A stretch of DNA of 64,000 nt from a virus, in the IMG/VR virus record IMGVR_UViG_3300028920_000034, positions 89,115 to 153,114 of that record; one strand, 5' to 3'. A program made the position numbers and the translations under genes. The notes below the pieces were generated by a model. It saw only the letters and a program-made list of their open reading frames with translations, was not told where the DNA came from and searched no databases. Positions 35,247 through 49,321 of this stretch are shown piece by piece. Numbering within the stretch: position 1 is the first letter of the stretch; every line of letters begins with the position of its first letter.

Positions 35247-35251
35247 GGGTT

Positions 35252-35599: not shown

Positions 35600-35627
35600 G
35601 GCTCTCTTGTCTCCCCGGCCCCGCGCC
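35596..35627 (-). repeat. 32-bp junction repeat, copy 1
   Basis: Identical to 36024-36055. It spans the last codons (GAGETREP, stop), the ribosome-binding region and the ATG of the following gene. The copies are 428 bp apart. Confidence 0.85.
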
Positions 35628-36027: not shown

Positions 36028-36055
36028 GGCTCTCTTGTCTCCCCGGCCCCGCGCC
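36024..36055 (-). repeat. 32-bp junction repeat, copy 2
   Basis: Exact copy of 35596-35627 at the equivalent gene junction. The bodies of the genes are unrelated, so only the junction is shared. Confidence 0.85.
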
Positions 36056-36317
36056 GCTCGGCCACCAGGTGGTCCAGCCAGGCCATGCCCACCCGGACCA
36101 TCTCGAGCTCCCACCGATGGTACAGCTCCGCCTGGGCCGCCCGCGGTAGGTCTGCCCGGAACCGGATCACCATGTGTTCCTCTGGCTTGTCCGAGCACTC
36201 CAGGACGGTCTCATAGGTGGTCAAGTCCGTGCGCCACACCGCCGGCTTGAAGCAATGCGGACAGCACATCACTGGGGCTGGTGGCTCCCATGGGGGCCTG
36301 GTGTCAGTGGGTGTCAT
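36024..36317 (-). CDS. Zinc-binding hypothetical protein
   Basis: 97 residues. CCPHC at 18-22 and a further Cys near 41 (LECSDKPEEH) suggest a zinc site. The second half is helical (AELYHRWELEMVRVGMAWLD). It ends RRGAGETREP, the duplicated tail. Confidence 0.55.
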   Translation of the reverse strand: MTPTDTRPPWEPPAPVMCCPHCFKPAVWRTDLTTYETVLECSDKPEEHMVIRFRADLPRAAQAELYHRWELEMVRVGMAWLDHLVAERRGAGETREP

Positions 36318-36523
36318 GGGTCCTCGCTCCGGTCCAGTACAATGGTCCCCTTCGTGCCATCGAAGATGATCCCACACGGTTCACACGCGCAAAACCAGAC
36401 GGCGTGCTCCACCACGTTGTAGATCGTCCTGCACCGCGGGCACCTGACCTTGACGTACTCCGGCTCACTGGCTCGGCCCGGCCGGCTCCCGGTGCATAGT
36501 CGGCTCGCTTTTCTCCGCCTCAT
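36314..36523 (-). CDS. Zinc-ribbon protein
   Basis: 69 residues. CPRC at 28-31 and CACEPC at 45-50 give a ribbon. The N-terminus is basic (RRRKASRLCTGSRPGR). ATGA overlaps at both ends. Confidence 0.55.
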   Translation of the reverse strand: MRRRKASRLCTGSRPGRASEPEYVKVRCPRCRTIYNVVEHAVWFCACEPCGIIFDGTKGTIVLDRSEDP

Positions 36524-36723
36524 GGGGTCCTGTCCCTCGCCCTCCGCGGCCGGTACGCCTCGGGGTGGGCCGCCCGGACGCGCCTGCATAGCTCCTGCCA
36601 CGCCTCGTGTCTGCCGAGCCCAGGCTCGAAAGTGGCAATCTCATCCAGTAGCTCGGGGATGCTCATGTGGGCCACGCAGGGTAGGTCTGGCTCACACCGC
36701 TGGCACTCGCGTGGCTTGCTCAT
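36520..36723 (-). CDS. Small Cys/His protein
   Basis: 67 residues. C7, C10, C16 and H19 form a compact zinc knuckle at the N-terminus (ECQRCEPDLPCVAH). A helical part (EAWQELCRRVRAAHPEAY) and a basic tail follow. Confidence 0.5.
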   Translation of the reverse strand: MSKPRECQRCEPDLPCVAHMSIPELLDEIATFEPGLGRHEAWQELCRRVRAAHPEAYRPRRARDRTP

Positions 36724-37019
36724 GGGGTGCCTTCCTTCACCATGGCCTCCCCGGCCAGATCGATATGTGAGCTCCACCCGACGTGCTGGCAATCCTGGCA
36801 CACGTACTCCCGCTGTAGGTCGCTGCTTCTGGCTCCCCGCGCGTGATGCTTCTTGGGTGGGTTGGGCCTGGTCTTCCCGGTGAGGAGCACCCGGCTCGCC
36901 CAGCCCTTGTCCCGCTGGTGCCACCACCACCCAGAGTATTCTGTCAAACGCCCCTGGCGCCGCCGGCACTTCCAGCACCGGAAGCTCAAGGGGCTCCCTG
37001 GTCCGCTGCTACGCCCCAT
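36720..37019 (-). CDS. Zinc-ribbon protein
   Basis: 99 residues. CWKCRRRQ at 15-22 and CQDCQH at about 74-79 form a widely spaced ribbon around a basic, Trp-rich centre (EYSGWWWHQRDKG). Overlaps the next gene by ATGA. Confidence 0.55.
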   Translation of the reverse strand: MGRSSGPGSPLSFRCWKCRRRQGRLTEYSGWWWHQRDKGWASRVLLTGKTRPNPPKKHHARGARSSDLQREYVCQDCQHVGWSSHIDLAGEAMVKEGTP

Positions 37020-37022
37020 CGG

Positions 37023-37271
37023 TCAAAGGTCCTTGTGCTGATAGCATGGCTTCCCAGGGAAGCATCCAGGGCACCCCTCCTGAGCCTTCCTGGCAAGCCA
37101 GTTGTTGTGAGCCCTGATGGCCTGGCAGATGTCACAGGCGCAATGCTTGTTGGGTAGGCCGCCCTTCATCTTGGCCTCCTTGATCGCGATCAGGAGCTCG
37201 CGTTCTTCCTCGAGCTCGGCCACCATCTCTTCGGCCAGGTTGGCCTCGTCCTCGTACTTGTAGAACCCCAT
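37023..37271 (-). CDS. Small helical protein with cysteine cluster
   Basis: 82 residues. Residues 5-38 are an acidic helix (EDEANLAEEMVAELEEEREL). Residues 43-80 carry CACDIC and CPGCFPGKPC, so a zinc site is likely. Confidence 0.5.
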   Translation of the reverse strand: MGFYKYEDEANLAEEMVAELEEERELLIAIKEAKMKGGLPNKHCACDICQAIRAHNNWLARKAQEGCPGCFPGKPCYQHKDL

Positions 37272-37274
37272 CGG

Positions 37275-37676
37275 TCATCCCTTCATGTTCGGGTCTCGTC
37301 TCAGGCACTTGAGGCACTGATTCGTCATTGGATCTACCGACTTGACCGCATGACACCGGATGCAGTCCTCCCAGGCTTCTGGCTCCCCATGCTCGTAGAA
37401 GAACACGCCGTCCGCCGGGGCCGTCATCGGTTGGATGGTGAAGCACTCCCGGATGATCTTGCTGGTGGGGGACTCCCAGGTGGGGTCCGCCACGCTGTGG
37501 AGTGTCCCTTCGGCCCCACAGCTCGGACACTGCTGTCCGCCAGGCTCCCACCTGGCCACGGGTGGGTCTCCCTCCACCACGGCCGGATTGGCCAGGAAGC
37601 ACGCCCGGCACATGCCGTTCAAGGGCTTCCCTCGCATGGACTCGAGGAGCTCCTGGACTCGGTTGTCACGCTCCAT
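37275..37676 (-). CDS. Zinc-ribbon protein carrying an MCP-like segment (MCP 98-115)
   Basis: 133 residues. Residues 81-96, IQPMTAPADGVFFYEH, match the MCP signature VQPMSAPIGGIFFFEY (MCP 99-114). Four cysteine pairs surround the segment: CRAC (23-26), CPSC (50-53), CIRC (105-108) and CLKC (121-124). The QPM-[ST]-x-P-x-G pattern is a hallmark of gp23-type capsid proteins. It lies among overlapping small genes, far from the capsid operon. It could be a decoy for a host sensor, an assembly modulator, or debris of an MCP duplication. Confidence 0.65.
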   Translation of the reverse strand: MERDNRVQELLESMRGKPLNGMCRACFLANPAVVEGDPPVARWEPGGQQCPSCGAEGTLHSVADPTWESPTSKIIRECFTIQPMTAPADGVFFYEHGEPEAWEDCIRCHAVKSVDPMTNQCLKCLRRDPNMKG

Positions 37677-38109
37677 GCTTCGCCTCCTCGCTGCGCTCCA
37701 CGGCCGCCCTGTAAAGCCGCTCGGCCTCCTGGAGCCGCTCCCAGGCTTCCCGCCTGGTCTCGCTCTGATGGCCGCCTGGGAGCTTCGTGTTGTCCACCAG
37801 CTTCACCCGGGCAAGCCGGGGCCGCATGTCCCCACCGCAGACCAGGCACTGGGGCCCATCCCCGCGCCGGTCGTTCAAGGGGTCCACGGTGGACTCGCAG
37901 GAGCACCTGGGTGGCTCCCAGGCTTCGTGGCGGCACCTGATGGAGCAACAGAGCTTGCCGCTCACCACCTCCCAGCGCCGGCCGTTCATCTTGAGGCTCA
38001 TAGCTTCCCTGGCCGCCGCGTAGGCCCGGCTCGGGTGCCCAGGGGTCACCACCTGGCTCCATCCCACGTCTCCGCACACGTCGCAAACCACTACCATCTT
38101 GATCGCCAT
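37666..38109 (-). CDS. Multi-cysteine protein
   Basis: 147 residues. CDVCGD at 9-14, CCSIRC at about 53-58, CSC, and CLVCGGDM at about 88-95 suggest two zinc sites. The C-terminal 40 residues are a charged helix (RREAWERLQEAERLYRAAVE). TAATG overlap with the gene upstream. Confidence 0.55.
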   Translation of the reverse strand: MAIKMVVVCDVCGDVGWSQVVTPGHPSRAYAAAREAMSLKMNGRRWEVVSGKLCCSIRCRHEAWEPPRCSCESTVDPLNDRRGDGPQCLVCGGDMRPRLARVKLVDNTKLPGGHQSETRREAWERLQEAERLYRAAVERSEEAKHGA

Positions 38110-38447
38110 TAAACCGGCTCCCTTCCGGCTTCGCCCGCCATCGGGTCTGGCCACTTCTGGCTGCTCACGTGTCCGCAGTCATCGCACCTGGTGATCACCG
38201 TGCCACCCAGGTAGGCGTTCCCCTTGCGCTTGGGCATCGCCACCCCGGTGGTGGTGTTCTTGCTCCCGCACGCATCGCAGGAGACCGGCTCGCTGGCGCT
38301 GTAGGTGGGCTCCTGGGGTGGCTCCTGTTCGAACATCCGATTGCGCTCGTAGCACTCCCGGCAGACGGACAGGAGCCGCCCGGTGGTCTCGCCCTTCATC
38401 ACGGGGTTGTCGCAGTCCGTGAACGCGCACTTCGGTCGGTTGCTCAT
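38109..38447 (-). CDS. Double zinc-ribbon protein
   Basis: 112 residues. Pairs at C7/C12, CREC (about 29-32), CDAC (about 58-61) and CDDC (about 88-91) would form two ribbons. The second half has the order of TFIIS-like ribbons (NAYLGGTVITRCDDCGH). Overlaps the MCP-like gene upstream by ATGA. Confidence 0.55.
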   Translation of the reverse strand: MSNRPKCAFTDCDNPVMKGETTGRLLSVCRECYERNRMFEQEPPQEPTYSASEPVSCDACGSKNTTTGVAMPKRKGNAYLGGTVITRCDDCGHVSSQKWPDPMAGEAGREPV

Positions 38448-38902
38448 GGCAGCTCTCCCGGCGCCCCGCACCCGGGGCACCCGTTGACGTTGGGCAGGTA
38501 GGCGCGCCCGCAGTAGCCGCACGCCACGGCCGCCGGCCCGCGCTCGCCGGTCTCCTTGCCCATCGGCTCCACACCCACGGCCAGCATGTTCATGCAGTAG
38601 TCCGCCAGGAGCTGTGCCCCCGGGGCCGCGTTCTTGGCCAGCACCACGGACACCTGACCGCTCTGGTAGTCCACCGTACACCTGCCCCCGGCGTCCCCGT
38701 GGAGCTCGCCGTTGCCATCGGTGTCCTCGAGGCGCATCTTGCCGCGCTTACCCTTGATCGTGAGCACCAGCGTCTTGGGCACCACGGGCGTCCAGGTGAG
38801 CACCCCTTCCAGGTGAGCTTGCTTCTTGCCGGCTATGGCCACCGCCTCCTGGTAGACGTGCTCACTCGAGTAGTACCGGTCAAAAGACTGGATCAGGTTC
38901 AT
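38444..38902 (-). CDS. Stand-alone MCP insertion-domain homologue with C-terminal zinc ribbon
   Basis: 152 residues. Residues 3-107 align along their length with MCP residues 129-240: LIQSFDRYYSSEHVYQE against MIQNFDRFYSSERVYHE, then TWTPVVPK against DWFPVVPK, DTDGNGELHGD against DADGSGTLAGD, and YQSGQVSV against YASGDFNI. Residues 128-146 add CGYCGRAYLPNVNGCPGC, a ribbon absent from the MCP. The start overlaps its neighbour (ATGA). It is thus an isolated capsid domain expressed as a small protein. Options are a capsid decoration protein, an assembly regulator, or a decoy of the MCP. Confidence 0.8.
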   Translation of the reverse strand: MNLIQSFDRYYSSEHVYQEAVAIAGKKQAHLEGVLTWTPVVPKTLVLTIKGKRGKMRLEDTDGNGELHGDAGGRCTVDYQSGQVSVVLAKNAAPGAQLLADYCMNMLAVGVEPMGKETGERGPAAVACGYCGRAYLPNVNGCPGCGAPGELP

Positions 38903-39411
38903 CGCTTCGCTCCAGTCCCGGTCCCGCGCCGGAACCGGCCGTAGGCCACCCGGTAGTCCGGGTCCTTGAGGAGTCGCCCGGGGTCCCACCCGTCCGTCTC
39001 ACCACTGGCGTAGGCGATGATGGTGCCCTCCGCGGCGAGGCGCTTGGCGTGGTCCAGGTAGTACCGGCTGGCAGCCGTTCCGGTGGCCAGGAGCTCGCCC
39101 GTGTCCCGGTTGTAGCAGAGCTCCACGGTGGTGGGCTTGGGAGGCTCTGTGGGCTCCTCGAGCTCGGCCTCGATGGGCGCCGGTGGCGCTCGCCCGGTCT
39201 CGCCGGCCATTATGGGGACAATCTCCCCGTCCTCGAGCATCACCTCCACCCGGTCCGTAGCTGTCACATAGCTAGCATCCCCGGGCTTCATGAGGGGGCT
39301 GTCCGGCTCGAGCAAGTTGATCCCCGTAGTAAGCGCCCAGTCCACCTCCCTCTGAGTGAGCCCGGTGCCTGGCACCTTGGGCGATCCGGTCCACCTGTGG
39401 TTCTTGCTCAT
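38899..39411 (-). CDS. Hypothetical protein
   Basis: 170 residues. N-terminal helical half (TQREVDWALTTGINLLEPDS), an acidic Pro-rich linker near 75-95, then a mixed domain (TVELCYNRDTGELLATGTAA, TIIAYASGETDGWD). It has no zinc motif. Function unknown. Confidence 0.5.
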   Translation of the reverse strand: MSKNHRWTGSPKVPGTGLTQREVDWALTTGINLLEPDSPLMKPGDASYVTATDRVEVMLEDGEIVPIMAGETGRAPPAPIEAELEEPTEPPKPTTVELCYNRDTGELLATGTAASRYYLDHAKRLAAEGTIIAYASGETDGWDPGRLLKDPDYRVAYGRFRRGTGTGAKR

Positions 39412-39414
39412 GGC

Positions 39415-39690
39415 TTACCTTCCTCGAGGGCATCCCGGGCCGCGCCCTCCGCTTGGTACTTCGCGCTCCGAATGTTCATCCCATGGCCACACGTGGGTGA
39501 AAATGTGGCGCATCGGCCCCAGGTGAACCTCCCTCACCTCCACCCCGACCGCCTTGGCCACGTAGGCGATGGCCGCCATGGCAAGCTGTCCGCCATGGTG
39601 ACGGTCATCGTGCTCTGGGGTCCAGTTCTCCACAGTCACCTGGCGCTGGCGCTCCGCCGCGATCAGGTCCACTCCGCTTGCTCCGCTCAT
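39415..39690 (-). CDS. Conserved phage protein of the 'AERxRQ...EHDD' type
   Basis: 91 residues. LIAAERQRQVTVENWTPEHD followed by DRHHGGQLAMAAIAYVAKA matches a short helical family common in phages (DUF550-like). Its members keep E-R-x-R-Q, W-T-x-E-H-D-D and an Ala-rich helix. These resemble all-alpha NTP pyrophosphohydrolases, but activity here is not shown. Start overlaps the deoxyribosyltransferase-like gene (ATGA), consistent with nucleotide metabolism. Confidence 0.6.
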   Translation of the reverse strand: MSGASGVDLIAAERQRQVTVENWTPEHDDRHHGGQLAMAAIAYVAKAVGVEVREVHLGPMRHIFTHVWPWDEHSEREVPSGGRGPGCPRGR

Positions 39691-40079
39691 GGTCTCACTC
39701 CGTTCGGTTCTACCAGACTGATCTCGAGCACCAGCCGATCCGCTGCGTCCTGTGGGGACATGCCCACCAGGTCCACCACTGGCAGCCCCTTGGCCCGGGC
39801 CGTCTCCGCCTCGCCGGTCATCCCGGTGGACCACTGTGGGCCCACAGCGATCACTCCACCGAACAGGCCCACCAGGCGCCGGCCGATGGCCAGGGAGAGC
39901 TCTCTGTCCCCTGGATAGTGGTCGTCCATCCCGGCCGCCATGGCGTACCAGGGCGCCACGGCGTGAATCCCGGACCGGACCAGGGCCCGCTGGTAAGCCA
40001 GCACGGACGCCAGGTTCGCTTGTATCCCTGCGTGGGTCTTCGCGCCCACTGGGTGGGCGATGTACCAAAGCCGCTTCAT
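39687..40079 (-). CDS. Nucleoside 2-deoxyribosyltransferase-like protein (DUF4406 type)
   Basis: 130 residues. WYIAHPVGAKTHAGIQANLA at the start, then AVAPWYAMAAGMDDHYPGDR, then a beta strand GGVIAVGPQWSTGMTGEAET. This is the order of the 'hemi-Rossmann' deoxyribosyltransferase/DUF4406 family, where the YIAHPV...N motif and S-x-G-x-x-x-E form the nucleoside site. Probably acts on nucleosides or NAD-like molecules. Confidence 0.6.
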   Translation of the reverse strand: MKRLWYIAHPVGAKTHAGIQANLASVLAYQRALVRSGIHAVAPWYAMAAGMDDHYPGDRELSLAIGRRLVGLFGGVIAVGPQWSTGMTGEAETARAKGLPVVDLVGMSPQDAADRLVLEISLVEPNGVRP

Positions 40080-40083
40080 GGTT

Positions 40084-40383
40084 TCATGGTTCCTTGTCCT
40101 TGTGGCGCTCAGGGCGATCCCTCACCCGCGGCATGGGCTCCCGGAGCTTGCCCCAGGAGTCCACCCCGGGTGGGTCCATGAACCAGTCCTTGAGCCACTC
40201 GAATTGCTCGGCTGGCAGCGCCCGGATCACCTCGCCGCACTCCGCGCACACCCAGGCCGGCCCACCGCGATCCCACCACGGGCGCCCATCGTTGTCCTGG
40301 ACGTTGGTAGTCCGCATGAACGCCAGGCTTGCAGCGAGCTGGATCGTGTCCTTGTCGCACTGGTAGCAGAAGATGGTTTTCAT
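40084..40383 (-). CDS. Zinc-ribbon protein
   Basis: 99 residues from ATG 40383, which overlaps the upstream stop. CYQCDKDT at 6-13 and CAECGEVI at about 44-51 form a ribbon. A helical Trp/Phe-rich part and a basic tail follow (RVRDRPERHKDKEP). Confidence 0.55.
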   Translation of the reverse strand: MKTIFCYQCDKDTIQLAASLAFMRTTNVQDNDGRPWWDRGGPAWVCAECGEVIRALPAEQFEWLKDWFMDPPGVDSWGKLREPMPRVRDRPERHKDKEP

Positions 40384-41033
40384 GAACAGGTACAGCTCCT
40401 TCCGCACTCGGGACACGGCTCCAGGTTCCCTGGCCCGTTGTCCTTGCACGCCTGGCGCACCTCCATGGCGAACCCGCGGATGTTTCCGGCCACCAGGGTC
40501 CGCTCCCGGTCGCTCAGGGAGTCCATGGGGAGCCCGCTGATGTACTTCTCCACGTCCACGGGATCTGCATCCTCGTCCTCCATGGGTTCGGTCTCCGGAC
40601 CCACCAGCACCGCCCCGGCTTCCGCGAGGAGCTCGTCCCGCGCCTGGTAGCCGTCATCGGGGCCGCCGGACACCTCTGGCACCGTCACGTTCTCCAGTGG
40701 AGTCGCGATCACCCTGTGGTCCAGCTTCCCCACGGCCTCCCAGATGGGCTTCACGGCCGCCTCGAGCTCCGCCAGCCCGAGGGGTTGCCCCTCCGCTTCG
40801 ATGGCCGCGTTGCACGCCGCCTCCACCACGTCCAGGTAGGTCCGGTTGGCGCGCCCGCGCTCACAGGAGCGCCCATAGGCTTCGCCGTCCGCCAGGGCCC
40901 CGGCGATGGCCGCGCTGGTGTCGCCGTCCAGGGCTTCCTTCAGGCTTTCGTTCACCTGGCGCAGATGGGCGAGGAACCCCTTGAGCTCCTCCACGCGCGC
41001 CTCGAGTCGCTTGATCTTGTCCTGGTCACTCAT
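40380..41033 (-). CDS. Coiled-coil protein with C-terminal cysteine motif
   Basis: 217 residues. Residues 5-37 are a coiled coil (KIKRLEARVEELKGFLAHLR). The centre is acidic and helical. The end, CPECGRSCTC, is a half-ribbon that could pair in a dimer. Function unknown. Confidence 0.5.
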   Translation of the reverse strand: MSDQDKIKRLEARVEELKGFLAHLRQVNESLKEALDGDTSAAIAGALADGEAYGRSCERGRANRTYLDVVEAACNAAIEAEGQPLGLAELEAAVKPIWEAVGKLDHRVIATPLENVTVPEVSGGPDDGYQARDELLAEAGAVLVGPETEPMEDEDADPVDVEKYISGLPMDSLSDRERTLVAGNIRGFAMEVRQACKDNGPGNLEPCPECGRSCTCS

Positions 41034-41370
41034 GGTCCAGTGGTTCCTCCATCCCGCTCGGGCCGTACAGCCAGATCACCTCGCTCACCTTGATCCCGCC
41101 ATCGTAGTCGGTCCCGTAGTCGATGCTGTCGATGCGCTCGCTCCACAGGCATCCGCAGACCAGCGCCCCGGCCGCGTTGTCCGGGATGCCACCCGGCTCA
41201 TCCGCCAGCACGTCCCGGAGCTCCTCCTCGAGCTCGGTTTCGTTGTCGAACCACGGCACGTCATGGGCCGCAGTGGCAGCCATGTTCACGATGATCCACG
41301 TCTGTGGTTCCTCTGGGTCTGGCCCCAGCCAGAGCCACACCGGCTGACTTTGGTGGTACGCCTGGCTCAT
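41026..41370 (-). CDS. Hypothetical acidic protein
   Basis: 114 residues, ATG at 41370. Acidic and Trp-rich, with a helix (ETELEEELRDVLADEPGG) and CGC near residue 73. No domain recognised. Overlaps the neighbours on both sides. Confidence 0.5.
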   Translation of the reverse strand: MSQAYHQSQPVWLWLGPDPEEPQTWIIVNMAATAAHDVPWFDNETELEEELRDVLADEPGGIPDNAAGALVCGCLWSERIDSIDYGTDYDGGIKVSEVIWLYGPSGMEEPLDHE

Positions 41371-41657
41371 GGCTTGGAACCTCCATCGCCATCCGGCCCC
41401 TCGAAGTAGCCCGTGTGCCACGGCGCGTGGAACCGATACGGATCGCTCACGCTGGGCAGCGTGGAGAGCTTCGGAAACCCCGGGGGCTTGAGGTTCATGT
41501 GGATCGTCTTCTGGGCCTCGCTCACGTGTAGCCGGGCCGTGTCGCACGCATCGGAGCCATGCTTCGATCCGTCCCGCGCGTAGTCCTGGGAGAGCTCCAT
41601 GAGCTCAATCTGGATCTGGGCCAGGCGCATCATGATGCTAGTCGCCCGCTTGATCAT
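41367..41657 (-). CDS. Hypothetical protein
   Basis: 96 residues. An N-terminal helix (SIMMRLAQIQIELMELSQDY), a helical middle (HVSEAQKTIHMNLKP) and a Pro/His-rich tail. No family recognised. Overlaps the start of its neighbour. Confidence 0.45.
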   Translation of the reverse strand: MIKRATSIMMRLAQIQIELMELSQDYARDGSKHGSDACDTARLHVSEAQKTIHMNLKPPGFPKLSTLPSVSDPYRFHAPWHTGYFEGPDGDGGSKP

Positions 41658-43056
41658 CGCCGTCCTCCTTGGTTGCCGCCGGGTGGCGGAGGGCCACCCT
41701 GGCCGCGTCCGCCAGACTCACCACGCTGATGGCCCACCAGCCGCACGTTCCGATCCCGCGCCCCAGGCCAGCGCACGTGAACGCCCAGGCGAAATCCAGG
41801 CTCCCCTCCGGCACCTGGGCCTCTATCATCACCGGCTTGCCGCACTCCGGGCAGCCGTTCCGTAGCACGCTGTCCACCAGGGTGTACGGGTCCAGCTCGC
41901 CGTCCAGCACCGGCTTGCCTGGTGGTGGGTGGAGCTGGTCTCGGAGGCGCCCGTTCTCCTCGTACAGCCGGCCCACCGTCTTGACCAGCCGCTCCCTCAC
42001 CTGGGCCTCCGTGTCCGGCGTCTGGAACCGGCCGCACGCCGGACAGAGCCCGTTGGAGCCGTTGTCCCCGCACACCTGGCAGCCCACCTTGCCCGACTTG
42101 GCTTCCCTGAGTTCGGCCCGGGCCTCCTCGAGCTCGGTGGCCAGCGTCACGCACGTCCCGGGGCACGGCTGTCCATCGTGGGTGAGGTAGAGCTTGTCCC
42201 GGGTGGCCTGGTCCATCTCCTCCACGGTGCGGACAGCCACATCCTTCACGTCCTCAAAGGACAGAAGCATGTTGCCCGATAGGTGGGTGTGGAGCTCCAG
42301 GGTGTCCTGGTCCTTGGCGTGGCCCACCAGGTGATCCATGGACTCCCAGTTCACATCCGCACCACCATCGCCCCGATCCCGCACCTTCACGATGCTCGCC
42401 TGGAGCGGCGTATAGGGGGTCATGGGCGACATGATGCCTTGCTCCATGCCCGGGATGATCACCGGGAGCACCACGCCGTCCCCCAGGACAACATGGCCCA
42501 CCAGGCCGCCCTGGCGCCGCGCCTGGTCCGAGTTGATGGCCAGGGGCACATGGACCACCGGCTCGCCGCCAGGGCTTCCCAGGGTCACCTCGCTGGCCTC
42601 GAGGGTCACGGTGCCATCGTCCCCGAGGCCCACCCGCGCCACGGGGATCTCCTTGTCCTCCTGTGGCGCGTACTCCATGCCCAGGTCTGGGTTGCGCTTC
42701 GGCTCCTCCATGGGCCCGAGGCCCACCAGCTCGCGCGCCCCGTTCATCGCCTCCCAGAGCTCCCCATCGGACACCGTGGGCTTGAGGCCCACGTGCTCCC
42801 TGGCCGCCTGGAGCTCGGGGCTGTTCAGGGCTTCGGAGAGCTCCCTGTGAACCGCGTCCGCCAGGCTGGTGATGCCCTTGTGTCCAGGATGCGTAGGCGT
42901 GGGGCTTTCCTCGAGTCGCATCCCAGCCTGGCACCATTCCTTGCCGCACTTGGGGCACCGCCAGTCTGCGAACCCGGCAATCTTGGCGAGCTCCACCCGG
43001 CACTCCGGACAGCTCGGCTGGGCTTGCTTGCCGCTCCACTTCTTAGTTGGGGCCAT
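41638..43056 (-). CDS. Large multi-zinc-ribbon protein
   Basis: 472 residues. The start is ATG 43056, with GGAGG five bases before it. Ribbon 1 is CPEC (16-19) with CPKC (34-37). A helical, acidic central part follows, then a beta-rich segment (about 150-240). Ribbon 2 is CQVC...CPAC near 325-340, a coiled segment follows, and ribbon 3 is near 395 (CPECGKPVMI...CAGLG). The modular build suggests a scaffold or nucleic-acid-binding protein. It is the largest gene in this stretch. Confidence 0.5.
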   Translation of the reverse strand: MAPTKKWSGKQAQPSCPECRVELAKIAGFADWRCPKCGKEWCQAGMRLEESPTPTHPGHKGITSLADAVHRELSEALNSPELQAAREHVGLKPTVSDGELWEAMNGARELVGLGPMEEPKRNPDLGMEYAPQEDKEIPVARVGLGDDGTVTLEASEVTLGSPGGEPVVHVPLAINSDQARRQGGLVGHVVLGDGVVLPVIIPGMEQGIMSPMTPYTPLQASIVKVRDRGDGGADVNWESMDHLVGHAKDQDTLELHTHLSGNMLLSFEDVKDVAVRTVEEMDQATRDKLYLTHDGQPCPGTCVTLATELEEARAELREAKSGKVGCQVCGDNGSNGLCPACGRFQTPDTEAQVRERLVKTVGRLYEENGRLRDQLHPPPGKPVLDGELDPYTLVDSVLRNGCPECGKPVMIEAQVPEGSLDFAWAFTCAGLGRGIGTCGWWAISVVSLADAARVALRHPAATKEDGDDQAGD

Positions 43057-43408
43057 GGTCCCCTCCTTTACCGCCATCGATCACGGTGGGAGTCCACCGC
43101 TGGGCACTGCTCTCCTCGGTGCTCTCCCCGTGGAGCTGCACCTGCACCACGGCGTCCCACGGCACCGAGCACCACCGGTAGCCCTCGCCAAAGCGTAGCG
43201 TCCCGCTGATGGCCTCCTGGGTACACTCCAGGTCCATGATCGGGGTAGGCGCATTGCGCCCGAAGTCCAGAGCCAGCACCTCGCCGCCACGGAACCGCTC
43301 CGGCACCACCACGCCTTCGGCTTCCAGGCGAAACGCCACGCGCACCATGTAGCCCTTGTTCAGGCCCTCCATGATCGCCGCCCGAGCTCGCTCGCCTTTC
43401 TCGCTCAT
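43043..43408 (-). CDS. SspB-like ClpXP adaptor homologue
   Basis: 121 residues. VRVAFRLEAEGVVVPERFRG, EVLALDFGRNAPTPIMDLEC, then EAISGTLRFGEGYRWCSVPW and DAVVQV follow the strand order of the SspB fold, especially the alpha/delta-proteobacterial type (I-P-D-L-x-V...G-I-S-G-T-L-S-F...V-P-W-x-A-V). SspB delivers ssrA-tagged and other substrates to ClpXP. The C-terminus lacks the usual Leu-Arg-Val-Val-like ClpX-docking tail. If so, it may bind substrates without delivering them, or use another docking site. Confidence 0.5.
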   Translation of the reverse strand: MSEKGERARAAIMEGLNKGYMVRVAFRLEAEGVVVPERFRGGEVLALDFGRNAPTPIMDLECTQEAISGTLRFGEGYRWCSVPWDAVVQVQLHGESTEESSAQRWTPTVIDGGKGGDHGPN

Positions 43409-43761
43409 CGCTCCCACATCCTTCCTGTGGCCCGCTGGTAGGCTTCGCGCACCATGTCCGGCCACCAGGGTGGCCCCTTCATGTAGGTCTCCATGCAGTC
43501 CAGCGTCCGCTTGCACTCGGGGCACGCCCCGTTCGGCGGACCCTCCATCCAGCGCACCTGGCCGCAGAACCCACACCGGCGGTAGCCGTCCTTGCGCCCC
43601 GGCCACCACCGGCGAGGGATGTTGATCGTCACCCCGGGCAGCGGCCGGAGGTGGGTCACCTGTGGGCTCCACCAACGCGCCGGACGCCAGTTGTATCGAT
43701 CCAGCCCGTACACGTTCACGGAAACAGGCCCGATGTTCACGGATAGCAGGTTCTTGTTCAC
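43405..43761 (-). CDS. Zinc-ribbon protein, GTG start
   Basis: 118 residues from GTG 43761, which overlaps the upstream stop (GTGA). CGFCGQVRW at about 65-73 and CPECKRTL at about 81-88 form a ribbon. The N-terminal half is beta-like (NLLSVNIGPVSVNVYGLDRY). Confidence 0.55.
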   Translation of the reverse strand: MNKNLLSVNIGPVSVNVYGLDRYNWRPARWWSPQVTHLRPLPGVTINIPRRWWPGRKDGYRRCGFCGQVRWMEGPPNGACPECKRTLDCMETYMKGPPWWPDMVREAYQRATGRMWER

Positions 43762-43991
43762 AGCTTCCCTCCGCTTGGTGGCAGCCCGAAGGGGTTGTCT
43801 TCGATGGCCAGGTGCCACCACTTGAAGTCCTCCGCCTTCACCGGCCACCATCGGCCGCACTCGCACTCCCAGCCGATGCGATCCACGTCCCTGTTCTTGC
43901 TCAAGCTGTAGACCGGCTTTGCTCCCTCTCGCCCACAGTCCCAGCACACCCCGCCGATCTGTAGCGTCTTGTGAACACCTCGCTTGGCCAT
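43758..43991 (-). CDS. Zinc-ribbon protein
   Basis: 77 residues. CWDCGREG at 16-23 and CECGRWWP at about 43-50 form a ribbon followed by a Trp-rich helix. Overlaps at both ends. Confidence 0.55.
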   Translation of the reverse strand: MAKRGVHKTLQIGGVCWDCGREGAKPVYSLSKNRDVDRIGWECECGRWWPVKAEDFKWWHLAIEDNPFGLPPSGGKL

Positions 43992-44179
43992 CACGGCCTC
44001 CCTTCGGGCCACGGTGGCCCACCCTGGCAGTACGGGTCCACGTCGCCCCAGTCCTCCACAGGGGGGCATCCGCACTCGAAGACGTGAGCATCGTGGATCC
44101 GGCACCAGTAGTCCTCGCAGTTGTCGCATGGGATCCACGCCGGGTAGCACTGGCCCTCCGCTGTGGTCTCTGGTCTCAC
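43991..44179 (-). CDS. Small cysteine-rich protein, GTG start
   Basis: 62 residues. Cysteines at about 11, 18, 21, 26, 36, 38 and 51 (PCDNCEDYWC; ECGCPPV) with a His between suggest a zinc-binding miniprotein. The GTG overlaps the upstream TGA. Confidence 0.5.
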   Translation of the reverse strand: MRPETTAEGQCYPAWIPCDNCEDYWCRIHDAHVFECGCPPVEDWGDVDPYCQGGPPWPEGRP

Positions 44180-44673
44180 GCCTTGCCCTCCACCGCCAGC
44201 ATCACCCTGGCCACCGGCCGCTGGCACTTCGGGCAGACCGGCTCCTCCTGGTAGCTGTCGCCCAGGAACCCTTGCTCGCACACCTCGCACTCGAGCTCCC
44301 TGGGTTCACCCTGGGCGTATGGATGGCCAGGCGGGGGCGGATGCAAGTCCTGAACCCCGGCGATGCCCACCGCGTTGCCGTAGTAGTCCGTGGCCAGCCA
44401 CACCACGCTCCTCGAGGATTCGGCGCCGGCCACTAGGCCCTCCGCCGGTGTCCCCTTGAACGCATCCGGGTGGAACGGGTCCCGGGCAAGCTCCCAGTGG
44501 TCTGGCGCGGAAAGGACCCAGAACATGCTCGGCGGATAGGCCACCAGGAGCTCCTCTGGCGAGCTGTAGCTGTCCTCCCTGCCCGTCGCCGTCACCACCT
44601 CCACCTTGCCTTCCAGGATCTCCCCGCGCGCCACCTCGCGGCCGTTCCAGCCCTCTGTGATGGTGATCAGCAT
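44176..44673 (-). CDS. Protein with beta N-terminus and C-terminal zinc ribbon
   Basis: 165 residues. The N-terminal 110 residues are beta-rich (LITITEGWNGREVARGEILE; VVWLATDYYGNAVGIAGVQD). CEVCEQGF and CPKCQRPV at about 130-155 form a ribbon. Function unknown. Confidence 0.55.
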   Translation of the reverse strand: MLITITEGWNGREVARGEILEGKVEVVTATGREDSYSSPEELLVAYPPSMFWVLSAPDHWELARDPFHPDAFKGTPAEGLVAGAESSRSVVWLATDYYGNAVGIAGVQDLHPPPPGHPYAQGEPRELECEVCEQGFLGDSYQEEPVCPKCQRPVARVMLAVEGKA

Positions 44674-45032
44674 CCGTCGCCTCGCTTCCCTGGAGTGAAC
44701 ACGTCCTGCCTCCCTCGCTCCATGTGAGCCACCAGGTCCACGCCCCAGACCCTCTGCGCCACGTCCACCCAGTTGCCGAGCCCAACGGCGCGCCCTGGAT
44801 TCTCTTCGTGCCACGCTTGAGCCCGCTTCGTGGCCTCCGCGGCAATCTCCTGGGCCGCGCTGAATGGCATCCCGATGAGGGGTGAACTCAGGTCCCCGCT
44901 GGCGAACCTGGTGTTGGCTTTGCCCACCATTTTCAGCACGCCGGCACAAGTCTCGCACACGGGCGCGCCCGCCCACGCGGCGCCGTCCCACCTGGTGTCC
45001 AGGCCATCGTCTCCGCACTGTGAGCACTTCAT
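44667..45032 (-). CDS. Zinc-ribbon protein with helical C-terminus
   Basis: 121 residues. CSQCGDDG at 3-10 and CETCAGVL at 26-33 form a compact ribbon. A helical part (AQEIAAEATKRAQAWHEENP) and a basic tail follow. ATGA overlap with the next gene upstream. Confidence 0.55.
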   Translation of the reverse strand: MKCSQCGDDGLDTRWDGAAWAGAPVCETCAGVLKMVGKANTRFASGDLSSPLIGMPFSAAQEIAAEATKRAQAWHEENPGRAVGLGNWVDVAQRVWGVDLVAHMERGRQDVFTPGKRGDGC

Positions 45033-45295
45033 CGCTTTCGCTCCACCAGCTCCACCGTGGCCATGGCGTCCAACATCCGGCCAATGGCCATCACGTTCTT
45101 GTCGGTGAACCGGACGCGCATCGTCACGTCCATGGACTCCACCGCGCCATCGTGGTCGAATCTCCGTTCCACGTTGTGGATAAACCCCACCGCCCCACGC
45201 TGTCCCGCGCGCACCGAAGGCGGCTCCTTCCCCTCGAGCCGCGCCAGCGCCGCATCGAACAGCGCCTGGTCATCGATCACGTACTCAGCACACAT
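45029..45295 (-). CDS. Hypothetical protein
   Basis: 88 residues. Helix (QALFDAALARLEGK), a beta hairpin (VDVTMRVRF-like), and a helix at the end (GRMLDAMATVELVER). No cysteine motif. No family recognised. Confidence 0.5.
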   Translation of the reverse strand: MCAEYVIDDQALFDAALARLEGKEPPSVRAGQRGAVGFIHNVERRFDHDGAVESMDVTMRVRFTDKNVMAIGRMLDAMATVELVERKR

Positions 45296-45587
45296 CGTAC
45301 TCGCTCCTGTGATTGCCGCCGCCCCGGTCATACTGGAGAGCCGCTCGCAGAACAAAGCGCACGTCCTTGGGCAGTAGCATCGGCTGTCGGCACCCGTCTG
45401 GCTCCCAGGGGTGGCCCATCGCCCCGCACGCACCGTAGGGCACCACGGTCCGCTTGCGGAGGATCACCTTCACACGCCCGCGCTCGTCCAGCCAGCTCGG
45501 GGGGATCCCCCTGGTGGACGGAACGCGCCGCTTCTTGTTCCCGCAGAACCAGCACCTCACGGTGCGCCGCTTGGGTTTCAATTCCAT
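45285..45587 (-). CDS. Zinc-finger-like basic protein
   Basis: 100 residues. Basic N-terminus (KPKRRTVRCWFCGNKKRR) with CWFC at 12-15, then C54 and H59/C66. The middle is rich in Lys and Arg. Possibly nucleic-acid-binding. Confidence 0.5.
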   Translation of the reverse strand: MELKPKRRTVRCWFCGNKKRRVPSTRGIPPSWLDERGRVKVILRKRTVVPYGACGAMGHPWEPDGCRQPMLLPKDVRFVLRAALQYDRGGGNHRSEYDVC

Positions 45588-45793
45588 CGCTCCTTGTCTG
45601 GCTCCGGTGGTGGCTCCGAGATCACATCGTACCGGTTCACGGACCCCTCGCGGAGCACCTGGTAGGCACACTTCTCGGCACGCTCCAGGTAGTCCTTGAC
45701 CGCCTCTGCCCGGCGCCGCTCCGCCACGGACCACACCCACAGGCCAGCTACCACCGCAGCGAGCACCAAGATCAGCACCGCCGCGACGATCAT
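45578..45793 (-). CDS. Membrane-anchored small protein
   Basis: 71 residues. N-terminal transmembrane segment (IVAAVLILVLAAVVAGLWVW), then a charged helix (AERRRAEAVKDYLERAEKCA), so the C-terminus is probably cytoplasmic or periplasmic with a coiled helix. This resembles inner-membrane spanin layout, but no partner is adjacent. Confidence 0.55.
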   Translation of the reverse strand: MIVAAVLILVLAAVVAGLWVWSVAERRRAEAVKDYLERAEKCAYQVLREGSVNRYDVISEPPPEPDKERWN

Positions 45794-46023
45794 GGCATTG
45801 GCTCCACGGCGTCCCTGGGCACCTCGAGCTGGATCGTGATCGTGCGCCCGCGCCCGGGCCGCTTTCGCATGAACGGGGAGCCGTCCTCCGGTGGCCCTTC
45901 CACCACCTCGGTTTCGACCTTCACCTCGGTGATCTCAGCGCCTCCCTTGAGGTAGGCGTCCAAGGTCCCAACCACGTCATCGCGCCGCTCCTGGGTGGTC
46001 ATCTTCCGCATGGACATTTTCAT
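45790..46023 (-). CDS. Hypothetical protein
   Basis: 77 residues. The ATG at 46023 overlaps the upstream stop and was preferred over a GTG six bases earlier. A helical N-terminus and a beta-rich C-terminus (RTITIQLEVPRDAV). No family recognised. Confidence 0.5.
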   Translation of the reverse strand: MKMSMRKMTTQERRDDVVGTLDAYLKGGAEITEVKVETEVVEGPPEDGSPFMRKRPGRGRTITIQLEVPRDAVEPMP

Positions 46024-46157
46024 CTGCACCGCTTCACCTCCTCCGCCATGGTGAGAGCCAGAGCCACGGGGAACAGCGCCACGGCTAGACCGAACCAGAG
46101 CCCCGCCTTGGCCACGTGACCGGCCGCCTTGAGCCAGTCCATGGATTCAGCCGTCAT
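46020..46157 (-). CDS. Small membrane protein
   Basis: 45 residues from ATG 46157, with GAGG six bases upstream. One hydrophobic segment, AGLWFGLAVALFPVALALTM, followed by EEVKRCR. Confidence 0.5.
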   Translation of the reverse strand: MTAESMDWLKAAGHVAKAGLWFGLAVALFPVALALTMAEEVKRCR

Positions 46158-46491
46158 GCTGTCCCTCATCGAAGGCGAACACCTGGTGCTCGCGCTCGCC
46201 ATCCTTCACCAGCACAGGGTTGATCCGCAGTAGTCCCCCTCCCGCGTAGTTGCATGGGGACTTGCCGCCGAACGCATCGTTGTCCATGTGGCCGTTCCAG
46301 CGCCCGATGCAGGAGAAGTAGGCCGTGCTGGGCTGCACGTCTACCCCATGATCATGGAGCTCCTTGAAGTCCTCCACGGACTGGACGTGGCCGCAGCTCG
46401 GGCAGACGAATCGCCACTTCATCTGGTCATCCCCGAACAGCTCGATGCCATGGGCTTCCCACTCTTCCTTTGTCATGATGATGCGCTTCAT
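46147..46491 (-). CDS. VVA0879-family zinc-ribbon protein
   Basis: 114 residues. MTKEEWEAHGIELFGDDQMK, then WRFVCPSCGHVQSVEDFKEL matches the VVA0879-type phage family, which keeps E-L-F-G-x-D-x-x-x-W-x-F-x-C-P-x-C-G-x-x. A second half follows (SCIGRW, CNYAGGGLLRINPV). The family is frequent in phages but has no known biochemical role. Confidence 0.65.
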   Translation of the reverse strand: MKRIIMTKEEWEAHGIELFGDDQMKWRFVCPSCGHVQSVEDFKELHDHGVDVQPSTAYFSCIGRWNGHMDNDAFGGKSPCNYAGGGLLRINPVLVKDGEREHQVFAFDEGQHDG

Positions 46492-46796
46492 AGCGTGATG
46501 ATCCGCTTGGGTTCATCGTCCTCTGGCGCTCCCTGGCCGCTGCACCGCGGACAGATGAAAGTCTGCACCGGGCTTGCGAGCACCAGGAGCACACCCTTGA
46601 GGGCCTTGATCTGCTCCTCGGACTCTAGGGCCACCACCTGGTTCTCCTGGTTCACGCCCACGGGCTGAATCTGGATCGGCACCCCGAGGGTAGCCTTGCA
46701 GTGGGGGCACGCTGCCGTGATGGTGGGCACCATGTGGCCTACGGGCACCTCCCAGGGGTTCTCCACGTCCGCGTTCGGGTCTCTCTCTTCGCTCAT
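46488..46796 (-). CDS. Zinc-ribbon protein
   Basis: 102 residues from ATG 46796. CPHCKATL at about 29-36 and CPRCSGQG at about 80-87 flank a helix (ESEEQIKALKGVLLVLASP). The GGAGG upstream lies eight bases from this ATG. Confidence 0.55.
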   Translation of the reverse strand: MSEERDPNADVENPWEVPVGHMVPTITAACPHCKATLGVPIQIQPVGVNQENQVVALESEEQIKALKGVLLVLASPVQTFICPRCSGQGAPEDDEPKRIITL

Positions 46797-46800
46797 CGTG

Positions 46801-46911
46801 TCATCCTCCAATCATCGAAGAAACCATCAGTAGGATCCCGACCACCACGGCCAGGAGCACCGCGCCCACCAGGAGGCGCTTCCAGAATCCGGTCACCGCC
46901 GGGTCACTCAT
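46801..46911 (-). CDS. Very small membrane protein
   Basis: 36 residues. After DPAVTGFWKR one hydrophobic segment fills the rest (LLVGAVLLAVVVGILLMVSS). The ATG overlaps the neighbour's coding end, and its stop abuts the next Shine-Dalgarno. A minimal single-pass protein. Confidence 0.5.
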   Translation of the reverse strand: MSDPAVTGFWKRLLVGAVLLAVVVGILLMVSSMIGG

Positions 46912-47095
46912 GGGGCTTGCCCTCCTCAATCATCCGGATCACCCGCGCCAGCCGAGCCACTGCCCGGTCGAAAGCCATGGGCTCCGCCAGCCGCTCGCGG
47001 TCCACCTGGAGCCCCCACGCCTTGAGGGCCCGCGGAATGCTCTCCTTGAGCCGCTCCTCACGCTCCTGGGCTGTTGGCATCCGCTCAACTCGCAT
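46904..47095 (-). CDS. Small helical basic protein
   Basis: 63 residues if the ATG at 47095 is used; a second ATG at 47080, four bases after the upstream stop, is also possible. Arginine-rich helices (REERLKESIPRALKAWGLQV; DRAVARLARVIRMIEEG). Function unknown. Confidence 0.5.
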   Translation of the reverse strand: MRVERMPTAQEREERLKESIPRALKAWGLQVDRERLAEPMAFDRAVARLARVIRMIEEGKPHE

Positions 47096-47507
47096 CAGGA
47101 AACACCTTGTGGACAAGCGGGAAAATGAACTTGGTGTACTTCTCCACGTCGTCTGGATCGATACCTTTGCGAGCATGATCCTTGACCGATTCCTTGAGCC
47201 TCCTGGATTCAAGCTCAAATAGCCTGGCCAAGATAAGCGCCCTGTCGTCCACTCCCTCCACCATCCATGCCCACTTTTTCAGCGTATTCTCGGGCGATCC
47301 ATAGTTGTCTCTGCATACCTCACAGTCGGGATCATTGCAGATCGGGAGCAAGCTCATGTGAAGATCCGACAACGCACAGCACGCATCGCAGTCTTCGTTG
47401 CCAACCTCTATCCCGTCTTCCACGTAACAGGTGTGCTTGAGCCTGGCTTCAATGCCGCGCCTGATCTCAGCAAACCTGACTTCATCGTAGCTGCTCGGGT
47501 GACTCAT
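47085..47507 (-). CDS. MCP N-arm homologue fused to cysteine-rich N-terminus
   Basis: 140 residues. Residues 77-134 match MCP 26-86: KKWAWMVEGVDD with LARLFELE against QKWAWLLDGIDE with LARLFENQ, then YTKFIFPLVHKVF against YVKFIFPLVRRVW. The gp21-type cleavage site of the MCP (I-S-E|A) is replaced by GIDPDDVE, so the arm should not be processed. Residues 1-70 carry cysteines (CYVE, CDACC, CNDPDCEVC), probably zinc-binding. The segment corresponds to the MCP propeptide and the first part of the mature protein. Confidence 0.75.
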   Translation of the reverse strand: MSHPSSYDEVRFAEIRRGIEARLKHTCYVEDGIEVGNEDCDACCALSDLHMSLLPICNDPDCEVCRDNYGSPENTLKKWAWMVEGVDDRALILARLFELESRRLKESVKDHARKGIDPDDVEKYTKFIFPLVHKVFPDAS

Positions 47508-47689
47508 CTCTCTGCTCCCGCTGGCACCAGGTTCCCCTGAAAGCCGCAGTCATGGCACTTGGCCGTGTCCGACACGTAGGGCTTGCGCCAGATCACCTTT
47601 CCGCACCTGGGGCACTTCATCTTGCGCCACGGCTTCCTCGGTGGAGCGTAGCGTCTAGGTGCCTTCGGGGGCTTACGTTTCGTCGCCAT
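47504..47689 (-). CDS. Basic zinc-ribbon protein
   Basis: 61 residues. Very basic N-terminus (KRKPPKAPRRYAPPRKPWRK), then CPRCGKVI at about 26-33 and CHDCGFQG at about 45-52. Overlaps the MCP-arm gene start by ATGA, so the two are translated together. Confidence 0.55.
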   Translation of the reverse strand: MATKRKPPKAPRRYAPPRKPWRKMKCPRCGKVIWRKPYVSDTAKCHDCGFQGNLVPAGAER

Positions 47690-48203
47690 CGTCCTTGTCC
47701 TTGCCGCCGTCCAGGCACCGCAGCTCCAGGGTGGCCTTCGGCACTGGCCACGCGCCTATGTGTTCAGAGGTGCCTACCCCGAACCCGGGAATCTCCGCCC
47801 TGGTCATCGGGTCCATCTCGTACCGGTCGCACCGCCGGCAATACCAGCCGTCCTCATGGACGTTCAGGGTCTCCTCGAGTAGATCGTGGCACACCCGGCA
47901 CACCGGGATCGTGGAGCCGATCATCATGTCGATGTTGGCCGCCACCGAACCGTCCGGCTGCCCCTCGCCCACCACCACAGACCCACCTGGCCGGCGAGCT
48001 CGAGGGGGCACGTCCGCCGGGGAGCCCTCCGCCAGCACCAGCGCCCACCACCCGCGGAGCTCGTCTTCGTTCCCAGTGGGGTAGTCCGCCCGATGGCACT
48101 GGCACCGGAACGCAGGCACCAGCGCCCGCTGGAACCCGAGGAGCCCTTCCGCCACCACCGGCTTCATCCGCTCGCCGCACCTGGGGCACTCGAGGATCAC
48201 CAT
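47673..48203 (-). CDS. Zinc-ribbon protein
   Basis: 176 residues from ATG 48203. CPRCGERM at about 6-13, CQCH near 36, CRVCHDLL near 103 and CRRCDRYE near 122 form two sites. The C-terminus is acidic. Function unknown. Confidence 0.5.
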   Translation of the reverse strand: MVILECPRCGERMKPVVAEGLLGFQRALVPAFRCQCHRADYPTGNEDELRGWWALVLAEGSPADVPPRARRPGGSVVVGEGQPDGSVAANIDMMIGSTIPVCRVCHDLLEETLNVHEDGWYCRRCDRYEMDPMTRAEIPGFGVGTSEHIGAWPVPKATLELRCLDGGKDKDDGDET

Positions 48204-48370
48204 GGCCACGGCCCTCCCTCGCGGATCGCGCGCTCCCAGGCCCTCCGGTTGCGCCGGTACTCCAGCTCGTTTCTCACCACCTCACCGATCCTTGAGAACG
48301 CCCTGTAGAGCATCATGATCGCCTCGAGAATGAACACCTCGAGGAGCTTGCGTAGCGCAACCCAGCTCAC
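48197..48370 (-). CDS. Small helical protein, GTG start
   Basis: 57 residues from GTG 48370. It is amphipathic (WVALRKLLEVFILEAIMMLY), then very basic (ELEYRRNRRAWERAIREG). The first helix is hydrophobic enough for membrane association. Ends in an overlap with the next ATG. Confidence 0.5.
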   Translation of the reverse strand: MSWVALRKLLEVFILEAIMMLYRAFSRIGEVVRNELEYRRNRRAWERAIREGGPWPW

Positions 48371-48371
48371 G

Positions 48372-48683
48372 TCACCCTCCAGATAGCCCGTGGCGCGGCC
48401 GGCACGCCCAGATAGCCGGCCTGGCGTCCACCGGGCCTCGCCCGCGGCGCAACGGCTCCACGTGCGGAGCCAGGGGCACCAAGTCCCACACGGGTGGCCG
48501 TGGTGGCGGTAGACATGGCTCTGGGTCTGGCACCGAGGAGCCGCTCGAGCTCACGTGGAACACCACCGTTCGGTCGCTGGTGGCGTTGGGCGGATCTCCC
48601 GCCCACGTGTAGCTCACCATCTGGTAGCCGTTGGGGCACGTGGGGCTCGAGTCCACGGTCCGGCTGGGGGGTAGAGCTGCCAT
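48372..48683 (-). CDS. Hypothetical Pro-rich protein
   Basis: 103 residues. The ATG overlaps the phosphoribosyltransferase stop (TGATG), which supports this frame over the alternatives. N-terminal half beta-like (GYQMVSYTWAGDPPNATSDR), C-terminal half Pro/Arg-rich. No family recognised. Confidence 0.4.
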   Translation of the reverse strand: MAALPPSRTVDSSPTCPNGYQMVSYTWAGDPPNATSDRTVVFHVSSSGSSVPDPEPCLPPPRPPVWDLVPLAPHVEPLRRGRGPVDARPAIWACRPRHGLSGG

Positions 48684-49321
48684 CAGACGTAGAACACCGC
48701 GCCCCGTCGAGACGCGCCTTTGTCCGGGCGATAGTGGGCCACAGTGGCGCCGAAGATCGGCCCGCGGTATCCGGCCTGGTGGAGCACCTCCGCCGCAGCT
48801 CGCAGCGTGGCGCCGCTGGTGAACACGTCGTCAACGATCAGCACTCCCGCCGCCTCCGGCACTCCCTTCACGGCCATGGTCCTCACGTGCTCCTGGTAAC
48901 CCGTCCCGGCATTCACGCCCCCGGCCCGGCGCCGCATCCGACTGGACTGCACGGCCACGGCACGCTCCACCAGGTCCACCGCGCGCTTGCCCGCGCCCGC
49001 GCGCACAAGCGCGTTGGCCAACACCATGTTGCTCGGGCGCCCGGACGCGCTTCGTGGAGCTGCCGTCACCACGCCCTTGAAGCCCTTGAGCCCAGGGTGC
49101 CGAGCGAGGGCCTCCGCCCCGGCGCGGATCGCCGCCTGGTCCCCGGCCTTGAGCCGTTCGATCAAGTCTTGGGTGGCATCCGTCTCCGGCGATGCGCCCC
49201 GGTGCTTTGTCCGGCTCAGGTACAGCATGGCGGAGTACACCGGGAACCGACCCATGCCCTTCCCGGACAGTGACTTCCGAAGCTCCTCGAGGAGCACCTG
49301 TAGGCGTGCTGTCATGGTCAT
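48683..49321 (-). CDS. Phosphoribosyltransferase-fold protein (ComF-like)
   Basis: 212 residues. VLIVDDVFTSGATLRAAAEV at about 160-180 is the PRPP-binding loop of type I phosphoribosyltransferases. VVTAAPRSASGRPSNM is the preceding loop. The N-terminus (LQVLLEELRKSLSGKG) resembles the block's targeting helix but has no clear L-x-E|A site. Phage phosphoribosyltransferases usually act in nucleotide or NAD salvage; ComF-like members are linked to DNA uptake. Substrate unknown. Confidence 0.7.
   Translation of the reverse strand: MTMTARLQVLLEELRKSLSGKGMGRFPVYSAMLYLSRTKHRGASPETDATQDLIERLKAGDQAAIRAGAEALARHPGLKGFKGVVTAAPRSASGRPSNMVLANALVRAGAGKRAVDLVERAVAVQSSRMRRRAGGVNAGTGYQEHVRTMAVKGVPEAAGVLIVDDVFTSGATLRAAAEVLHQAGYRGPIFGATVAHYRPDKGASRRGAVFYV

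Follow-up and report, generated by a model that had tools for sequence, protein, structure and literature searches.

Four described systems come closest to three small genes, here named A, B and C, which we found in a 64-kb stretch of virus DNA (the window; positions 89,115 to 153,114 of the 153,114-bp IMG/VR record IMGVR_UViG_3300028920_000034, labelled G000 among the compared genomes) and each of which contains a segment of the major capsid protein (MCP) encoded by the same phage. The vertex protein gp24 of phage T4 is a paralogue of gp23 and resembles the three genes in its gp23-family origin and in being encoded by the same phage, but it is a full-length HK97-fold structural protein beside gene 23, whereas the pieces in A, B and C comprise 17 to 114 amino acids, are joined to cysteine modules and are located 31 to 43 kb away. 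The T-even internal proteins have been described as defence proteins of many kinds (PMC3012670), and IPI-III provide a parallel as diverse accessory proteins that a short tag directs to the core of the prohead; their tag is conserved, cleaved, N-terminal and about 10 amino acids long, whereas the putative tags considered here are different MCP segments that are mostly not N-terminal. The Gol region of T4 gp23, the activator of Lit, corresponds to a QPM/N-arm stretch that is present in B, in a gene D of other phages and in ORF261 of Xanthomonas phage XacN1, but Gol is an integral part of the MCP and activates a protease of the host, whereas the equivalent stretch is here part of separate small proteins. 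Finally, the mobile immunoglobulin-like and insertion-domain modules of phages are reminiscent of gene C, whose predicted beta domain shares its fold with tail proteins of its own phage and with sheath and MCP models, but C differs by an MCP-specific flank, by being a free small gene and by its zinc ribbon. None of the tested known kinds of gene, i.e., a full capsid paralogue, an internal protein with a cleaved tag or a pseudogene, fits A, B and C.

The MCP was used as a BLASTP query against the 515 open reading frames (ORFs) of at least 50 amino acids in the window, and the best non-self matches were exactly the genes C (38% identity to MCP 128-241; E=2.3e-20), A (41% identity to MCP 25-88; E=1.1e-8) and B (53% identity over 17 amino acids to MCP 98-114; E=0.005). 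The original prediction that the genes at 47085, 37275 and 38444 hold MCP segments, which are disjoint and nearly adjoin on the MCP, is thereby borne out by the alignments. The positions in the window are as follows:

4669..6168, minus strand: MCP, gp23 type, 499 amino acids, donor family of the pieces (Pfam PF07068 [Gp23], E=4.6e-69; PHROG 138, E=1e-69)
5965..5982, minus strand: putative prohead-protease site IISE|AT after MCP E66, with cleavage presumed from the sequence and the analogy to T4 gp23
47085..47507, minus strand: gene A, 140 amino acids, cysteine-rich N-terminal part and C-terminal MCP piece (BLASTP)
47100..47279, minus strand: MCP-like part of A, A 77-136 corresponding to MCP 25-88, from the pro-region to the start of the N-arm (BLASTP)
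47313..47429, minus strand: cysteine cluster of A (C27, C40, C43, C44, C57, C62, C65), putatively zinc-binding from its sequence
38444..38902, minus strand: gene C, 152 amino acids, MCP piece and C-terminal zinc ribbon (BLASTP), with ATGA overlaps at both ends
38573..38902, minus strand: MCP-like part of C, corresponding to MCP 128-241, E-loop and insertion domain (BLASTP, AlphaFold2, Foldseek)
38468..38521, minus strand: CxxC...CxxC tail of C, a putative zinc ribbon (sequence; weak Pfam zinc-ribbon matches, E 0.035-0.4)
37275..37676, minus strand: gene B, 133 amino acids, CxxC-CxxC, MCP piece, CxxC-CxxC (BLASTP)
37389..37445, minus strand: MCP-like part of B, corresponding to MCP 96-114 with the conserved QPMxAPxxGxFF motif, the Gol-like gp23 region (BLASTP, shuffles)

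Scores against an MCP profile amount to 27.1 bits for A, 7.3 for B and 63.3 for C, and were reached by none of 4000 shuffles each (best shuffle for B, 2.7). In an all-against-all comparison of the window ORFs, C-MCP and A-MCP are the two top pairs. For A and C, E-values as well as shuffles thus rule out chance matches; the match of B is weak, borderline and only moderately significant when taken alone, but it is supported by the orthologue in a second record (G001, see below), which also matches the MCP (E=0.001), and by other phages, in which this MCP stretch turns up again. All three pieces are located within the N-terminal 241 of the 499 MCP residues, and a simple model of three random intervals gives p of about 0.0017 for their being disjoint and confined to that half. 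The matches had been predicted to be beyond chance and to follow the order of the MCP; the first part holds, whereas the order along transcription is A, C, B. With 17 to 114 of 499 MCP residues covered, the homology is restricted to segments and stays below Pfam Gp23 detection, and none of the three is a full-length gp23 or gp24 paralogue. The similarity of A and C to their own MCP roughly equals or exceeds that to other MCPs, and the trees of the pieces show long unresolved branches in or near the MCP clade of the source phage.

The frames of the three small genes are intact, and their cysteine pairs are absent from the aligned parts of the MCP, as predicted. Zinc binding is suggested by the cysteine spacing, and the cysteine cluster of A has no Pfam zinc match. 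A deletion in A takes out the putative maturation site (MCP IISE|ATT, E66), whose glutamate is invariant among the MCPs of relatives; in T4, the 65 N-terminal residues of gp23 are cut off at maturation (PMC9958956). The combination of an N-terminal targeting sequence and a prohead-protease site that characterizes internal proteins is found in none of the genes, since the piece of A is C-terminal and lacks IISE|AT, and B and C have no such N-terminus. Gene B consists of two CxxC pairs, the MCP-like stretch RECFTIQPMTAPADGVFFYEH and two further CxxC pairs; it also shows a weak HNH-like PHROG match of 23 residues (E=0.0037). Gene C probably starts at ATG 38902 rather than at GTG 38989, because the gene begins at the ATGA overlap, and it opens there with NLIQSFDRYYSSE, followed by the insertion domain and the CxxC...CxxC tail. 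Maturation-site-like sequences were also noticed in two other genomes: a 72-amino-acid gene beside a tail-type gene (G005 20193-20411; L079:1193-1411) starts like the maturation-site region of MCPs, RKRGYLSELTTSSDVPSIVKPF (E about 3e-4), and a weaker match is present in G009 (51345-51539; E=0.1).

The AlphaFold2 model of C, calculated with MCP relatives, has a confidence score (pLDDT) of about 93 in the MCP part, which is all-beta after a short helix, and a zinc tail of low confidence. Foldseek with this model retrieved a predicted tail sheath protein with E=3.4e-6, together with MCPs at E=4.4e-6 or weaker, from a viral library and the P1 head protein from the PDB with a probability of 1.0 but E=0.03. 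C is therefore predicted to fold as an E-loop/insertion domain, i.e., a self-standing beta domain. In the MCP part, C is thus modelled confidently and resembles MCP and sheath domains. The model of the full MCP is poor (pLDDT 60) and usable only for the pro-region with the N-terminal helices and the domain at 140-240. Outside the window, the insertion-domain module of the MCP also occurs in structural-type ORFs of the same genome (G000 54536-55570, 57439-58428 and 78427-80634), and similar repeats are present in long ORFs of many relatives.

The three genes belong to an extended array of accessory genes:

33700..51600, minus strand: some 30 small genes, most of them cysteine-rich, in an array that includes A, B and C, with several single-gene gains or losses relative to G001

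G001 (IMGVR_UViG_3300029258_001212; 153,540 bp), whose MCP is 99% identical, aligns along most of the window, largely with a DNA identity of about 82-98%. It contains B at 95% identity and lacks A and C. At both loci of G001 the upstream gene runs directly into the downstream gene via an ATGA stop-start overlap, and in the window a complete A or C gene lies between the same neighbours, with starts and stops overlapping again. At least two further array genes (37023-37271 and 43043-43405) are absent from G001, with less tidy junctions. The GC content of A is 0.53 compared to an array mean of 0.657 (z -4.8), thereby suggesting that A is probably a recent import, which arrived as a complete chimaera. 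Gene B is subject to strong purifying selection with an overall dN/dS of 0.078 between the window and G001; in its MCP part, one I/V difference gives G001 the residue of the MCP, and one A/V difference yields a residue that is found at this position in other MCPs. Searches for close relatives of A and C in IMG/VR and of B in IMG/VR and GTDB returned only B in G001. A pattern scan for C-like starts gave no result, and the scan for A-like ends gave 35 loci, where any match to the MCP profile is due to a full or truncated MCP. The purifying selection on B, the clean presence or absence of A and C, the composition of A and the recurrence described below are indicative of intact cassettes rather than of one decaying MCP copy.

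The original prediction had also proposed to look for small genes with MCP segments in related phages, and MCP-profile searches of related virus records and named phages located them in G029, G043, XacN1 and LR756511. Gene D of G029 (IMGVR_UViG_3300017987_000003), a phage with an MCP that is about 37% identical, matches the profile with E=1.4e-5; its 141 amino acids comprise a CMCDCH...CC motif and the MCP N-arm, LPMIKKTYPVLKAEDIVSVQPMTA, and it belongs to a different array of small genes, some 42 kb away from the MCP. G043 contains an orthologue of D with 55% identity, which aligns to MCP 71-134 (E=6.5e-7), and both proteins combine CxCxCH...CC motifs with the MCP N-arm. In XacN1, ORF261 ends in an N-arm piece that is 61% identical to its own MCP, and the second half of ORF451 corresponds to MCP 225-261; both exceed the Pfam Gp23 cut-off (33.4 and 31.1 bits; cut-off 24.4) with only 34-37 of the 376 model positions. 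The uncultured 595-kb phage LR756511 harbors an ORF with cysteine pairs and a C-terminal MCP piece (E=1e-4) and, as a second and weaker candidate, an ORF of 171 amino acids. No short MCP pieces were found in T4, which has gp24 only, in POP12 and Thanatos-1, where a second, near full-length MCP match close downstream is the only one, or in most of the cyanophages and in the Pelagibacter, Rhizobium and other phages tested. As a separate observation, the N-terminal part of XacN1 ORF261 (AP018399 151297-152082) looks by eye like a degenerate start of a large-terminase ATPase (PHROG terminase E=0.07).

Head proteins seem to be the preferred donors. Comparable pieces of any other gene are absent from the all-against-all comparison of the window, and in XacN1 only the MCP yields such short pieces, fibre/adhesin-type relatives aside, so a general shuffling of fragments from all genes was rejected for these two data sets; greedy gene picks drop real genes in GC-rich genomes, including the MCP of G000, and were not counted for that genome. 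A control with the portal protein in the same 27 records returned two short ORFs, which both carry the same portal stretch, FYxDVGxLxxxxAxxxxxKxxxxxKK:

G023:4562-4804: portal-piece ORF (E=4e-12 against its own portal)
LR756511:410487-410744: portal-piece ORF

These genes are therefore better described as carriers of head-protein pieces with the MCP as the main donor. The corresponding control with the large terminase subunit (TerL) revealed no short pieces and is weak, as TerL of the G000 group escapes the model. Counts by region are biased, since conserved stretches are more readily detected. Apart from the short ORFs, the portal ORFs of G008, G025 and G030 (1907, 1466 and 1713 amino acids) show their portal match in three segments that are split by long stretches within one open frame; they look interrupted by large insertions, possibly inteins.

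Our tentative reading of these data is that A, B and C are functional accessory cassettes, in which captured MCP contact segments are fused to metal-binding cysteine modules and mimic capsid contacts. A short contact segment of a gp23-type MCP would have been captured and joined to a cysteine module, and each gene would move as one cassette. The E-loop of T4 gp23 contains the insertion domain, which lies on an adjacent subunit, and the N-arm and N-fist are in contact with neighbours (PMC9958956); on these facts, with the placement made by alignment and analogy, the three pieces would be the regions with which the MCP reaches its partners. The segment of A would represent the pro-region that faces the scaffold core, the segment of B the N-arm/QPM and the segment of C the E-loop together with the insertion domain on the adjacent subunit. 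Each protein would dock where its MCP segment normally docks, i.e., on the scaffold or on the P-loop/neighbour side of another MCP, and might thereby tune or cap head assembly; alternatively, it may deliver its zinc module to the interior or the surface of the head during assembly, comparable to T4 internal proteins with a targeting tag. Direct support exists for the homology, the intact frames, the behaviour of the genes as cassettes, the purifying selection on B, the confidently predicted fold of C and the recurrence. From these we infer the docking on capsid partners and an effect on assembly or targeting. In a wider sense, it is quite possible that large gp23-type phages carry an undescribed class of accessory genes, which combine segments of their own head proteins (MCP, portal) with small, often zinc-binding modules, and whose mimicry of capsid contacts serves to control assembly, to enter the head or to blind capsid-sensing immunity.

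Several observations weigh against the mimicry of capsid contacts. The MCP-like part of B changes faster (dN/dS 0.21) than the rest of the gene, and four of its six amino-acid changes fall within this part, which makes up 21 of the 133 codons; furthermore, selection was measured on B alone, A and C each being single-copy. The insertion-domain fold of C also occurs in tail proteins of the same phage, although C has the MCP-specific NLIQSFDRYYSSE flank. The frequency of the QPM/N-arm piece reflects in part a detection bias, and the pattern of contact segments is not universal, as the piece of XacN1 ORF451 (MCP 225-261) stems from the globular body and the genes of LR756511 carry C-terminal MCP pieces.

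A rival explanation is that parts of abundant late head genes became joined to genes for small zinc proteins by illegitimate recombination, and that the products were kept for another role that is unrelated to the capsid, for example one in which the zinc part binds nucleic acids or proteins. This explanation, which we consider rather unlikely, draws on the high plasticity of the array with its many single-gene gains and losses, on the insertion domain as an already mobile module of the phage's own tail proteins, on the stronger conservation of the zinc parts of B compared to its MCP part, and on the use of portal pieces and several MCP regions as sources. It is less easily reconciled with the non-random sources in the window and in XacN1, the presence of the N-arm piece in three unrelated gene contexts and of the same portal stretch in two phages, and the retention of the MCP part of D in an orthologue of only 55% identity.

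A further alternative concerns host immunity, as several defence systems sense the MCP (PMC9712102, PMC11312562, PMC12926258). Soluble MCP pieces might occupy capsid-detecting sensors of the Lit/Gol, Thoeris or CapRel type without providing the activating arrangement, and the location of the genes in a hypervariable accessory array as well as the Gol-like QPM/N-arm stretch of B, D and ORF261 would be in agreement with such decoys. However, CapRel-SJ46 contacts the P and A domains of the MCP (PMC9712102), which are absent from all three pieces, a Gol-like peptide activates Lit instead of blocking it, and other MCP and portal pieces are also present in XacN1 and LR756511. Sau-Thoeris senses MCP hexamers that are held by E-loop/P-loop contacts (PMC11312562), and C, being an E-loop/insertion-domain piece, could disturb them; the decoy function thus remains a rival in spite of the missing CapRel site, albeit an improbable one. 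Even less probable is an interference with co-infecting relatives, whose heads with divergent MCPs would be entered or poisoned by the pieces: with an identity of only about 40% to their own MCP, A and C could favour a different partner, A has a foreign composition and the presence of the genes varies between close relatives, but the fact that A and C match their own MCP at least about as well as others gives no sign of a target choice. The decay of an ancient MCP copy, which the original prediction had listed as an alternative and which, if insertions had shattered the copy, would explain three disjoint and nearly adjoining pieces, is very improbable in the light of intact genes with ATGA-coupled starts, the dN/dS of 0.078 of B, a foreign composition of A only, the gene order A-C-B, the added zinc modules and the independent recurrence in other phages; neither frame loss nor relaxed selection, the latter computed on B, was observed.

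Two specific routes of origin were rejected. Copying of abundant MCP mRNA by a reverse transcriptase finds no correlate, as RVT_1 is missing in four genomes, and an origin from introns or homing is contradicted by the lack of an HNH match in G000 and G001 and of anything exon-like. That such events exist is illustrated by the split MCP of Bacillus phage SP-15 (L146, 25318-28184), where an endonuclease gene interrupts the MCP gene, which is annotated as two joined pieces.

In a limited search of the open-access literature we found no report of small phage genes that have segments of the phage's own capsid protein at their core. Full-length capsid paralogues are already known; any novelty would concern the kind of gene observed, and the mechanism remains a proposal. 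If the mimicry of capsid contacts is true, these genes would illustrate how phages adjust the assembly of their heads or respond to capsid-sensing immunity, and they would provide natural peptide ligands for contact sites of the capsid.

The capsid operon of the window contains further head genes:

6230..7798, minus strand: prohead (head maturation) protease (PHROG 207, E=8e-51)
7808..8881: putative scaffold protein, assigned from its position
10070..11782, minus strand: portal protein (PHROG 213, E=7e-56)

An ORF at G000 36979-37719 shows 44% identity over 63 amino acids with the DNA methylase at window positions 49348-50649. Moreover, a family of dispersed repeats of about 70 bp is present in the window (2951-3006, 14455-14525, 23459-23530, 50931-51004 and 52003-52075) and with many copies across G001, and these repeats possibly represent promoter regions.

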